Positions 7,313-36,340 of a DNA stretch of 64,000 bases are shown piece by piece. A program made the position numbers and the translations under genes. Where the stretch lies: the NCBI RefSeq assembly GCF_001441535.1, contig NZ_LMAU01000001.1, positions 496,001 to 560,000 of the forward strand, read 5' to 3'. Under the pieces are notes generated by a model. It saw nothing but the letters and a program-made list of their open reading frames with translations, was not told the DNA's origin and searched no databases. This DNA comes from Tsuneonella troitsensis. GTDB taxonomy: Bacteria; Pseudomonadota; Alphaproteobacteria; Sphingomonadales; Sphingomonadaceae. Position 1 is the stretch's first letter. Every line of letters begins with the position of its first letter.

Positions 7313-7420
7313 AATTCAGCACAAATTCAGCCCGAGAAGGCCATTTACGCGTCCGAACAGAGGGGCAACTCGGCGAACGCGGCTTGAGCAGCGCGCCCTC
7401 CCCGCCATATGGACACTTCC

Positions 7421-7921
7421 ATGAAGACCACCAGATTTCGCTTTTCCGCCGTCCTGCTTGCCTCCGGCGCGCTGATCGTCGGAGCCGGTGCGCCCGCCAG
7501 CGCGCAATACAACCAGAAGATCGGCAACGACATGAGCCAGTGCCGTAACGGTGCCGGCCCTGCCGTTCTCGTGACGGTCGATGGCGTGAAGAGCGCGCAA
7601 GGGCGCGTACGGGTGCAGACCTATCGCGCGACTTCGGGCGACTGGCTCCAGAAGGGGCGCTGGCTGAGCCGCATCGAAACGGGGGCAAGGGCCGGAACGA
7701 TGACATTCTGCGTTCCGGTACCTTCGGCCGGTTCCTATGGCATCGCGGTCCGCCACGATCTCAACGGCAACGGCAAGACCGATCTTTCGAGCGACGGCGG
7801 CGGAATGTCGAACAATCCGTCCATCAACATCTTCAATCTGGGCAAGCCAAGCTACACGAAGACCGCGTTCCCCGTCGGCAGCGGCGTGAAGTCGATCAGC
7901 ATCCAGATGCGATATATGTGA
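7421..7921 (+). CDS. DUF2141 domain secreted protein
   Basis: About 166 residues with a clear Sec signal peptide ending at ASAQ. The mature part has the DUF2141 pattern: VLVTVDGVKSAQGRVRVQTYRA, then YGIAVRHDLNGNGKTDLSSD, and SINIFNLGKPSYTKTAFPV near the end. The DLNGNGKTD segment resembles a calcium-binding loop typical of this family. Function of the family is unknown; it is periplasmic or secreted. An in-frame ATG at 7409 would add 4 residues; the inner ATG gives a cleaner signal peptide. Confidence 0.85.
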   Translation: MKTTRFRFSAVLLASGALIVGAGAPASAQYNQKIGNDMSQCRNGAGPAVLVTVDGVKSAQGRVRVQTYRATSGDWLQKGRWLSRIETGARAGTMTFCVPVPSAGSYGIAVRHDLNGNGKTDLSSDGGGMSNNPSINIFNLGKPSYTKTAFPVGSGVKSISIQMRYM

Positions 7922-33700: not shown

Positions 33701-34285
33701 GTGGGTAAGTCCCTGCGCTTTCGTCGCAAGCCGCGCTGGCGCCGCTCCGCGCCCAGGCCGGCGCGCTTCCGCACGAAGGCGCGCCCGAAGTCGTGGGGCC
33801 AGGCGCTGTCCGAAGTGCGGCCGATCCTCCTGTTCATCGCGCTGGCCACGCTGGCCGTGCTGCACCAGACCCCCGGCTTCTACGAGCCGCCCGCATTCCT
33901 GCAGAGCGATCCGCGAGAGGTTTCGGGCCAGTTCACCCGTTGCGGTCCGGGACGAGGCACCTTCTGCGTGGTGGACGGCGATACCTTCAAGCTGGGCGAC
34001 GACAGCTTTCGCGTAAGCGGGATCGACACTGCCGAGATCGACGCCCGCTGCCCGGCAGAGGCCGCGCAGGCCGAAGCCTCCGCCGCCGCGCTGCAGCGCT
34101 GGCTCAACCGCGGGCCGTTCCGCATCGCCACCCGGCTGGACGAGCCGACCGACCGATATGGCCGCACGCTGGCCATCGTGAAGCGCGCGGGCGCGGACGG
34201 CGGCGAGGACCGGCTGGCGGAATTCATGCGCGATGAGGGCGGCGCGCGCTGGTACGACGGGGGCCTGCGCGGCGGCTGGTGCTGA
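33701..34285 (+). CDS. Membrane-anchored SNase-like (thermonuclease) protein
   Basis: 194 residues from a GTG at 33701. A basic N-terminal stretch precedes one transmembrane segment (PILLFIALATLAVL). The exported domain has the SNase pattern FCVVDGDTFKLGDDSFRVSGIDTAEID, and TRLDEPTDRYGRTLAIV with the Arg expected near the active site. Homologues cut nucleic acids, so this could be an anchored periplasmic nuclease. Confidence 0.85.
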   Translation: MGKSLRFRRKPRWRRSAPRPARFRTKARPKSWGQALSEVRPILLFIALATLAVLHQTPGFYEPPAFLQSDPREVSGQFTRCGPGRGTFCVVDGDTFKLGDDSFRVSGIDTAEIDARCPAEAAQAEASAAALQRWLNRGPFRIATRLDEPTDRYGRTLAIVKRAGADGGEDRLAEFMRDEGGARWYDGGLRGGWC

Positions 34286-34298
34286 GCCATACGAAAAT

Positions 34299-34330
34299 GG
34301 CCGCCGCTTCCGGTTAGGGAAGCGGCGGCC
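34299..34330 (-). terminator. Strong hairpin terminator
   Basis: A perfect 13-base stem (GGCCGCCGCTTCC with its complement) and a 6-base loop. Read on the minus strand it is followed by ATTTTCG, so it best fits termination of the minus-strand gene at 34366-34710. It may also stop plus-strand transcripts from the nuclease gene. Confidence 0.75.
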
Positions 34331-34911: not shown

Positions 34912-35241
34912 ATGACTAGATGGAACAAGACTTCCAAATGGAAGCGCTCGATGATCGCGCGGCTGCTCAAGCGGGACGGCGAGGATTGGTGGCTATGTGG
35001 CCGTGCGATGCCTGATCCGCCCAGGCACCCGAACAAGCGACGAACGATCGAACACCTCAACCCGAGAAGCCTCGGCGGCGGCGACGAGGAGTCCAACCTC
35101 GTCGTCTGCCACCAACACTGCAACATGCACCTGCGCGACCGCCCGCCGGACCGGAAATTGAAGATGCGGGCGAAGTGGAGGCGATTTCTGAAGAAGGGCC
35201 CACCCCCAACCCCTCCCGCAGGCGGGAGGGGGACCAAGTAG
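34912..35241 (+). CDS. HNH endonuclease family protein
   Basis: 109 residues. The HNH core is RRTIEHLNPRSLGGGDEESN with LVVCHQHCNMHL after it, giving the paired Cys and His residues of a metal-beta-beta-alpha fold. No HNH-linked phage genes are nearby. The last 14 residues (GPPPTPPAGGRGTK) are encoded by the palindromic repeat at 35198, so the repeat has replaced or extended the native 3' end. No ribosome site is obvious. Confidence 0.8.
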   Translation: MTRWNKTSKWKRSMIARLLKRDGEDWWLCGRAMPDPPRHPNKRRTIEHLNPRSLGGGDEESNLVVCHQHCNMHLRDRPPDRKLKMRAKWRRFLKKGPPPTPPAGGRGTK

Positions 35242-35286
35242 CGCAACCTACTCCCCTCCCGCTTGCGGGAGGGGCCGGGGGTGGGC
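35198..35286. repeat. Palindromic REP/BIME-like element, copy 1
   Basis: The ends GCCCACCCCC and GGGGGTGGGC are inverted repeats. Inside are two hairpins, CCCTCCCGC...GCGGGAGGG in two orientations (about 35211-35230 and 35253-35274). Copy 2 at 35664 has the same order and orientation with a few differences. Copy 1 overlaps the 3' end of the HNH gene and ends 11 bases before the DUF559 gene. Confidence 0.9.
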
Positions 35287-35297
35287 AAGATCGCTAA

Positions 35298-35675
35298 ATG
35301 CCCGTCCCGCAATGGAAACCCCGCAACACCGTCCGCGCGCAGGCGCTGCGGCGGCAGGCTACCCCTGCCGAGCGCGAACTGTGGCGCCACATCTCGCGCA
35401 GCCAGCTAGGCGTGCGGTTCAGCTGCCAGATGCCGGTCGGCCCGTTCTTCGCCGACTTCCTCTGTCGCGAGCTCAAACTGGTGATCGAACTCGACGGCTT
35501 AAGCCACGACCTGGAACCGGAGCGTGACGCCAGCCGCAACCGCTGGATGGCGCGCGAGGGCTACACCGTCCTGCGCTTCGCCAATGCCGATGTGTTTGCG
35601 AACATGGAGGGCGTCGTCACCGCGATCCGGCTGGCGGTGGAGCGGCAGCGGGCATCACGACTGGCCCACCCCTAA
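35298..35675 (+). CDS. DUF559 domain protein (Vsr-like endonuclease fold)
   Basis: 125 residues. The core FSCQMPVGPFFADFLC and LKLVIELDGLSHDLEPERDASRNRWMAREGYTVLRFANADVF fits DUF559, a Vsr/PD-(D/E)xK-like nuclease fold. The Asp of FADF and the Glu-Asp pair in VIELDG are the probable metal ligands. It is bracketed by two direct copies of the REP-like element; its stop codon lies inside copy 2. Such proteins are widespread next to these repeats in sphingomonads in my recollection. Activity is not proven. Confidence 0.88.
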   Translation: MPVPQWKPRNTVRAQALRRQATPAERELWRHISRSQLGVRFSCQMPVGPFFADFLCRELKLVIELDGLSHDLEPERDASRNRWMAREGYTVLRFANADVFANMEGVVTAIRLAVERQRASRLAHP

Positions 35676-35750
35676 CCCCTCCCGCAAGCGGGAGGGGGAT
35701 CAATAACGCTACCAACTCCCCTCCCGCTTGCGGGAGGGGCCGGGGGTGGG
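35664..35750. repeat. Palindromic REP/BIME-like element, copy 2
   Basis: Same layout as copy 1: GCCCACCCCTAACCCC at the left, two CCCTCCCGC hairpins, GGGCCGGGGGTGGG at the right. The differences from copy 1 are mainly in the central spacer (CAATAACGCTACCAA against CCAAGTAGCGCAACC) and single bases. It carries the DUF559 stop codon. The direct orientation of the two copies would permit recombination that removes or amplifies the DUF559 gene. Confidence 0.9.
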
Positions 35751-35788: not shown

Positions 35789-36340
35789 TTAGTCGATCTG
35801 AATGTTTAGAAGTAACCGGACGAGCACGAAAGCTAAATAGCCAAGCGTGATTAGACCTGTTGCCATTAGCAAAGCGACGGAAGCATTGATCCAGCGTGGA
35901 AAGAGGCGTTGGTGGACAACTGGGACGGCCTTGGCCGGTCCTTCTTTTGCGCGGACGGAAGCGATTTGCGGGCCATTCAAGACCTGCAACGTTACGTTCT
36001 CACCAGGCCCAAGAAATCCAACCTCTAAAATCCACTCTCCTCGAGCACCAATGCGGGTCGAGTGATCGATCGTAGGTACGATGCTATAACCCCAAGGAAG
36101 AACTCCCGGTTCGGCGACGAATTGTATCTCAGTGGCGCTCTTGCGTCCGTTATTTTGAACTATGATCTGCCCAGCCCTAATGTTCATTGGGGGCCTACCC
36201 TCCTCTGGAGGATCAAGTTGAAAGGCAGTCGAATTTGGACTTAAGACAATCAAGCGTGGCTTTCCCGCAAGCCAGTAAGCAAACCATGAGGCCGCAAAGG
36301 CAATCATGGCCGACCAAAATACCGTCCAGAATTCGGGCAA
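35789..36340 (-). CDS. Hypothetical membrane protein, AT-richer than neighbours
   Basis: 183 residues. One transmembrane segment at the N-terminus (AMIAFAASWFAYWLAG) and one at the C-terminus (ASVALLMATGLITLGYLAFVLV). The part between is beta-rich and probably on one side of the membrane. Base composition and codon choice (many TTA, ATA-type codons) differ clearly from the flanking genes, which suggests recent acquisition. It starts only 4 bases after the nrdB stop. No family recognised. Confidence 0.7.
   Translation of the reverse strand: MPEFWTVFWSAMIAFAASWFAYWLAGKPRLIVLSPNSTAFQLDPPEEGRPPMNIRAGQIIVQNNGRKSATEIQFVAEPGVLPWGYSIVPTIDHSTRIGARGEWILEVGFLGPGENVTLQVLNGPQIASVRAKEGPAKAVPVVHQRLFPRWINASVALLMATGLITLGYLAFVLVRLLLNIQID

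Follow-up and report, generated by a model that had tools for sequence, protein, structure and literature searches.

The DUF559 gene of Tsuneonella troitsensis considered here lies between two direct copies of a palindromic repeat, and the locus raises the question of whether the gene and the repeats form a single entity and, if so, of what kind. The window, that is, the whole stretch of 64,000 nucleotides analysed, corresponds to positions 496001–560000 of contig 1, and the genome measures 2.90 Mb. An earlier note had described the gene as enclosed by two near-identical direct copies, and the copies (approximately 35198–35286 and 35665–35750) were indeed identical at 82 of 92 aligned columns. 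The nested hairpins that it reported were recovered on both strands of both copies (z values of −8.5 to −10.8; none of 200 shuffles equally stable, with RNA parameters), copy 2 supplies the stop codon of the DUF559 gene (TAA, 35673–35675), and copy 1 contains the end of an HNH ORF (TAG, 35239–35241), as it had stated. The 88-bp element that it took as the unit was not retained: each copy actually consists of two abutting motifs with their tails outward, and the unit conserved in relatives comprises the inner motif of copy 1, the DUF559 gene and the inner motif of copy 2, with the tails inward. The features of the locus are as follows.

34912–35241, forward strand: HNH endonuclease-like gene (HNH, PF01844, 24.6 bits against a cut-off of 21.4).
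35199–35231, reverse strand: outer left motif, tail leftward, with a 21-bp spacer to the left end of the unit.
35253–35697, forward strand: proposed mobile unit of 445 bp, composed of the left end motif, the DUF559 gene and the right end motif.
35253–35285, forward strand: left inner end, with stem CCCCTCCCGC-TT-GCGGGAGGGG, linker CCG and purine tail GGGGTGGG toward the gene (TM-motif type B).
35298–35675, forward strand: DUF559 (PF04480) endonuclease-fold gene, 125 aa (E value 1.9e-32).
35665–35697, reverse strand: right inner end, with tail CCCACCCC, linker TAA and stem CCCCTCCCGC-AA-GCGGGAGGGG.
35718–35750, forward strand: outer right motif, tail rightward, with a 20-bp spacer resembling the left one.

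Four palindromes (CCCCTCCCGCnnGCGGGAGGGG) surround the DUF559 gene, two per side, and the purine tail of each motif is single-sided: the stem GGGAGGGG is followed by a linker (TTG, CCG, TTA and CCG) and then by GGGGTGGG, which mirrors the stem, all four motifs scoring 8/8 as an antiparallel third strand (row L009). The right inner linker, which provides the stop codon, reads TTA on the opposite strand (type A), and the HNH ORF terminates within the 21-bp spacer of copy 1. The intrastrand triplex motif of Escherichia coli is described in the available text of PMC4666352 as a stem, a linker TTA (type A) or CCG (type B) and a purine third strand, and triplex formation in vitro has been reported for it (PMC4666352). 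The window motifs have the same TM/PIT layout (Y stem, R stem, linker and mirroring purine third strand), with a stem that differs from the E. coli consensus, and they resemble the TM-ECO/PIT motifs in the TTA or CCG linker and in the A + B doublets. At gathering scores the repeat matched no Rfam family, the sole match in the window being a tRNA. A 13-bp perfect GC-rich hairpin at 34299–34330, between convergent ORFs ending at 34285 and 34366, is not among the repeats under study. An ORF on the minus strand (35789–36340) is the right-hand neighbour of the DUF559 gene.

The HNH-like gene adjoined DUF559 in one of 10 congeners, in the stretch read beside the locus, and is either cargo or a neighbour. 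In one congener (G047), copy 1, including the outer left motif, and DUF559 were present, and copy 2, with the outer right motif, was absent. The DUF559 gene of this congener (L150 1605–1976) has a 30-bp in-frame duplication beside the active-site stretch and no downstream motif; it is perhaps a decaying copy. Neither a clean boundary nor an empty site was found for the window's own copy, nine of the 10 congeners having no HNH or DUF559 gene in the 2.6–4.8 kb read beside nrdB.

The comparison with the bond between REP elements and RAYT transposases, drawn in the earlier note, failed for the 88-bp unit and held for the tie itself, since DUF559 was associated with lineage-specific palindromes far above chance in Proteobacteria and Firmicutes. 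A DUF559 match was found in 127 of the 149 genomes of the family. We examined 90 high-scoring family loci, consisting of 30 top loci (at most one per genome, the best-scoring among the matches listed) and 60 of the next 67, seven sites being left out because they lay on short contigs or adjoined one already taken. A Y-rich perfect palindrome was present within 300 bp of the domain at 84 of these 90 loci: on both sides in 63 (22 + 41), on one side in 21 and on neither in six. When 315-bp intervals were drawn at random from the 60 larger regions concerned, such palindromes lay on either side in 3.0% of cases and on both sides in none of 5000. The density of Y-rich palindromes was 5.9/kb at 0–150 bp from DUF559 versus 0.05–0.12/kb at 1–7 kb, and that of other palindromes went from 0.22 to 0.07–0.09/kb over the same distances.

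At the level of the phylum, 108 of 299 genomes had a DUF559 match, and 27 of 28 new top-scoring loci (best among the matches listed; one locus from the window's own family) had such palindromes within 350 bp. In a second collection of 80 named loci, palindromes were found at 14 of the 15 loci of Proteobacteria type and at 41 of the 65 from Firmicutes (Clostridia for the most part); the latter count includes two loci with a purine-first stem only (L286 and L307), falls to 39/65 if pyrimidine-first stems alone are taken, and is drawn from a set in which some loci are near-duplicates. The commonest stem among these Firmicutes loci (CCTTCCCC) is unlike that of the window in sequence. A second hairpin, whose stem is GGCGTGACC..GGTCACGCC, is common to five clostridial loci (L272, L280, L284, L289 and L319), where it lies 150–270 bp downstream. 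The record L261, titled Chryseobacterium, has an enterobacterial-type DUF559 gene and TM repeats; it is likely mislabelled or contaminated, and was counted as Proteobacteria-type.

The association was confined to one kind of DUF559 gene, with such palindromes at none of 23 weak-scoring loci (from 23 family genomes). Most of these 23 loci have lost the ExDGxxH signature, and L342 and L353–L356 represent other domain contexts. In one genus, a weak paralogue (about 50–61 bits) was present in 20 of 21 genomes, among the matches listed, the exception being a genome 74% complete. The second DUF559 gene of the T. troitsensis genome (L010, C1:376819–377124) is of this weak-scoring, palindrome-free kind. 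This paralogue (L010, L334–L352) is widespread, and its function may be a vertically inherited housekeeping one or the binding of DNA.

The bracketed loci have a common architecture. The unit had a median length of 448 bp in relatives (interquartile range 427–477, range 397–576, n = 64). Among the nearest palindromes of loci other than Firmicutes, a tail scoring 7 or 8 of 8 was found on the gene-facing side of 87 of 149 ends and on the outward side of six, and the common layout is therefore stem-tail, gene, tail-stem, i.e., inverted ends. The triplex tail was rejected as a universal feature, given that 62 of the 149 ends had no scoring tail. At 38 of 64 loci the left and right stems were the same over 9 nt; such identity was seen in 6 of 67 pairs drawn from different loci within the same genome and in 630 of 5407 pairs spanning two genomes. 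DUF559 identity and stem similarity were not significantly correlated in a global Mantel test (the observed value was reached in 178 of 500 permutations), and a tree test was used as a second choice. On a DUF559 tree of 91 loci, built from few columns and with many weak forks, the palindrome type of the 74 loci with one clear type changed 18 times; the mean with shuffled labels was 36.5, or 26.2 when they were shuffled only within genomes, and 18 was reached in none of 300 shuffles in either case. The co-inheritance of palindrome and DUF559 is thus visible in the close pairs and the tree test only.

When related units in different contexts were compared, homology stopped at or near the outer stem edges (L038/L106 and L047/L113), and in the pair L068/L094, both from genome G123, it continued about 30 bp beyond the left stem. 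This genome contains three related copies of the unit, of which two agree at 96% of positions in the matched stretch. Among 821 pairs with both ends, homology stopped within 12 bp of the stem edge in 108 (left) and 133 (right), and extended more than 150 bp beyond the left end in 78 and the right end in 61, indicating that some pairs share their locus.

Sites with and without the unit were compared in relatives. The yqeY-dnaG spacer was read in 70 genomes (dnaG located in 66), the yqeY end being placed by position for 28 of 40 spacers, so that lengths are good to a few bases. In 18 genomes, including G096, the spacer measured only 3–43 bp, with a stem remnant in one; six genomes, including G002, a congener of G096, had the full unit, and the 97-bp spacer of G111 contained a gene-free doublet. 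Three further loci had the unit at this position (L065, with the left palindrome only, L104 and L105), several of the remaining spacers contained remnants and others unrelated sequence. In many genera (e.g., L156, L165, L168 and L184), units, a doublet or other sequence occupy this spacer, which therefore behaves as an insertion hot spot. In genome G103, a solo doublet (L383 2975–3064) lies inside a long open frame, where 105 bases are found versus 36 in the three relatives counted, an in-frame gain of 69 bases, or 23 codons; 15 of the 16 relatives aligned at this site had the short form and G452 was different. At a second G103 doublet, the spacer was about 14–16 bp in four of the nine relatives read; of the other five, two had single palindromes and one each had another doublet, an inverted repeat of unrelated sequence and a long insert. 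Inspection of the junctions by eye revealed no target-site duplication, although a short one could have escaped notice given the divergence of the empty sites. In Legionella evolution experiments, according to the available text of PMC12308824, segments carrying both a transposase and a DUF559 gene were hot spots of mutation and recombination. In relatives, then, a bounded unit is inherited with its ends, and a given site is empty, holds a doublet or holds the full unit. The earlier note had raised the idea of repeat-linked mobility, and palindromes that travel with the gene, gene-free copies and empty sites were all found; we consider it very probable that this is a discrete mobile unit.

In the T. 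troitsensis genome, the palindrome had 15 matches at no more than two mismatches (reversed-pattern control: 1), four of which bracket the DUF559 gene. Exact copies of the window palindrome type numbered 642 in the 149 family genomes (control pattern: 0), 13 of them lying even in the 22 genomes with no DUF559 match, and copies increased with DUF559 number (Spearman 0.53, the genomes not being independent). In 20 solo doublets, picked among the matches listed as two copies at most 200 bp apart, 34 of the 40 ends had an inward tail and none an outward one, and the stem starts lay 61–78 bp apart in 16. Judging from these sequences, the solo doublets are the ends of the unit in the same orientation with the gene missing, in the relation of a MITE to an IS: the same inverted ends occur on gene-bearing and gene-free copies, and empty sites occur in relatives at yqeY-dnaG and at two sites in the genus of G103. 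The abundance of copies also bears on local regulation, by which the palindromes would be terminators or insulators that silence or end the transcription of a dangerous nuclease gene. Their position directly before and after the gene, with the stop codon supplied by one of them here, would suit such a role. However, a genome may hold up to 68 palindrome copies and at most 10 DUF559 matches, the terminator scan listed neither element (its one match in the region is at 36134), and the homology boundaries and empty sites fit insertion. We therefore regard regulation as very improbable, and return to a mobile unit and its enzyme.

The window protein scored 111.8 bits against PF04480 (Pfam cut-off 20.6) and is thus a DUF559 member. 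Its AlphaFold model (pLDDT 88) most resembled 3hrl (Z 15.1), I-Bth0305I (3r3p, Z 13.4) and Vsr (1cw0, Z 9.6), the predicted fold being that of the PD-(D/E)XK/Vsr-EDxHD nucleases. Weak PDB profile matches to toxin B chains (E values of 0.05–0.22) were dismissed as chance beside 3hrl at 2.5e-27. Ten residues (E25, W29, Q44, D53, E64, D66, G67, H70, D77 and R80) were invariant in 51 sequences, including those from Firmicutes, so that the acidic/histidine core of the predicted nuclease is conserved. The dN/dS ratio was 0.06–0.31 in eight of 10 pairs, the other two being saturated. Purifying selection acts on the DUF559 gene and its active site is conserved; the low dN/dS and conserved core together suggest that it has been kept and is active.

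The predicted fold also bears on the main rival explanation, a selfish nuclease of the homing type, by which DUF559 would break its target and host recombination repair would copy the unit in, with the palindromes as recognition or processing sites. The EDxHD homing endonuclease I-Bth0305I is the closest solved relative with known biology, with a catalytic domain of similar modelled fold (Z 13.4 over 94 residues), a DUF559 gene is termed EDxHD in the available text of PMC9403480, and several genera have the unit at a single site, yqeY-dnaG. However, I-Bth0305I is a long multidomain protein, and EDxHD homing enzymes have added DNA-binding regions (PMC3943268, available text), whereas the window protein is a bare, stand-alone 125-aa domain with palindromic ends to its unit. 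Homing also needs a target that matches the flanks; most empty sites had no repeat that could be cut, should the repeat be what DUF559 recognises (most yqeY-dnaG spacers, of 3–32 bp, and one site in the genus of G103), and gene-free doublets with complete inverted ends would be unexpected. Break-and-copy homing is therefore an unlikely account of the unit, less so than regulation, and we prefer a mobile element with DUF559 as its own enzyme.

A second rival concerns whether DUF559 is that enzyme or a passenger, i.e., a hitch-hiker or host repair enzyme within palindromes whose movement depends on some unrelated enzyme, for instance a RAYT. In the genus of G103 (21 genomes), DUF559 with the matching repeat was present in six of nine repeat-rich genomes (at least 20 repeat matches) versus two of 12 repeat-poor genomes (at most nine), with a one-sided Fisher p of 0.03, the genomes not being independent, the cut being set by the analyst, and G460 being counted as having a matching DUF559 gene from coordinates. 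The refuting conditions set in the earlier note thus gave a mixed outcome: three repeat-rich genomes (G448, G459 and G450, the last with 87% completeness) had no high-scoring DUF559, only the weak paralogue. This suggests that repeats can persist, and perhaps spread, with no resident high-scoring gene, as a passenger role would allow. Three of the 18 high-scoring DUF559 loci read in this genus (91–96 bits) had no such palindrome.

Also consistent with a host role is VsrA of Caulobacter, a DUF559 protein for which a function as a Vsr-like repair enzyme has been proposed (PMC12907096). According to the available text of the same source, the SOS response seen without the methylase ScmA requires VsrA, and cellular DUF559 proteins may accordingly act on DNA. 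Vsr itself has a fold similar to the model (Z 9.6); the E. coli vsr gene lies next to the methyltransferase gene dcm and its product nicks T:G mismatches (PMC12907096), whereas no methyltransferase was found among the four neighbouring proteins scanned in the window. Against a passenger, a RAYT-type gene (PF01797) was absent from seven of 12 repeat-bearing genomes, T. troitsensis included, with a match in the other five; in T. troitsensis the bracketed gene is DUF559, and there is no Y1 (HUH) transposase of the REP/RAYT kind. The bracket also holds across phyla despite different repeat sequences (DUF559 being the only bracketed gene examined), and it is missing at weak-scoring DUF559 genes. 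A passenger role seems to us improbable, even more so than homing, and DUF559 is rather likely to be the cognate enzyme of the unit.

A comparable proximity was found in E. coli. In strain MG1655, Holder et al. 2015 (PMC4666352, available text) report 23 copies of the motif, all five inverted doublets joining A with B; the neighbouring genes formed no functional class, and transposons, phages and plasmids showed no connection with the motif. The text of PMC4666352 contains no word beginning with "DUF" or "endonuclease". The MG1655 gene ycjD, which we looked up for being a DUF559 gene, is annotated as DUF559; an exact TM consensus lies 167 bp from its stop end (L116 7206–7240; gene 7408–7761), and a degenerate palindrome, identified by eye, overlaps the end of the gene. 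By chance, with 23 copies in 4.64 Mb, a gene as long as ycjD would have one no farther than 300 bp away in about 0.5% of cases. An exact TM consensus was present within 20 bp of the DUF559 domain at eight of nine Enterobacter-type loci. A fabI-ycjD-sapF query was covered over at least 80% in 3333 of 5426 E. coli genomes. A clean empty site for ycjD was found in neither of the ycjD-less strains read, UTI89 and an O157:H7 strain. In these two strains (L153 and L154), a TetR-regulated RND efflux operon lies next to fabI where ycjD is missing.

Taken as a whole, the locus is probably a minimal mobile element: a unit of about 450 bp with a lone Vsr/EDxHD-fold nuclease and two inverted ends, each a palindrome with a purine tail. 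By folding back on the GC-rich palindrome, the tail may form a third strand. The ends would fold when single-stranded, probably during replication, and DUF559 would recognise the folded ends and nick or cut at them, after which the freed or copied unit or doublet would be inserted elsewhere; for the cleavage of a hairpin or triplex by DUF559, we see the chances as evenly balanced. The gene-free doublets would be miniatures of the unit mobilised in trans, in the way that a transposase mobilises MITEs. More speculatively, the tail-outward doublets of the window could be the joined ends of a circular or tandem intermediate, or could result from recombination with an older copy.

Several known systems are similar in part. 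The REP/RAYT (TnpA-REP), REPIN and REPtron systems share the short palindromes flanking a nuclease-type gene, the dispersed gene-free copies and the lineage-specific repeat types; however, RAYTs are HUH/Y1 enzymes tied to GTAG-tagged repeats (PMC3733652, available text), whereas the window system has a PD-(D/E)XK/Vsr fold and purine-tailed ends. Pairs of IS and MITE likewise combine a gene-bearing unit with short derivatives that have the same inverted ends, but the sole gene of the window unit encodes a 125-aa nuclease and no target duplication was seen. The usual transposases have a fold other than that of this DUF559 nuclease. The system is thus a variant of the repeat-plus-enzyme kind, and if DUF559 alone moves DNA, the enzyme class would be new. 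We advance, with slightly less than even confidence, that DUF559 represents a new class of transposition enzyme, in which a lone Vsr/EDxHD nuclease of about 120 residues recognises hairpin or triplex-forming ends and mobilises both itself and gene-free doublets, and from which the enterobacterial TM/PIT repeats and similar Y-rich palindromes in Proteobacteria and Firmicutes originate.

No link between DUF559 and palindromes was found in the available text of the open-licence PMC literature, and no source or partner gene for the TM/PIT repeats is named in the available text of PMC4666352. Because the pairing recurs in many bacteria that are only distantly related, it suggests a very small kind of jumping DNA, so far without a name, that has also left short gene-free copies. 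If this is true, a cognate nuclease family would provide the TM/PIT repeats with an origin and a testable mechanism. It would also explain a widespread "domain of unknown function", one such gene being ycjD in E. coli K-12, and would add a nuclease fold that is not usually a stand-alone mover of DNA.
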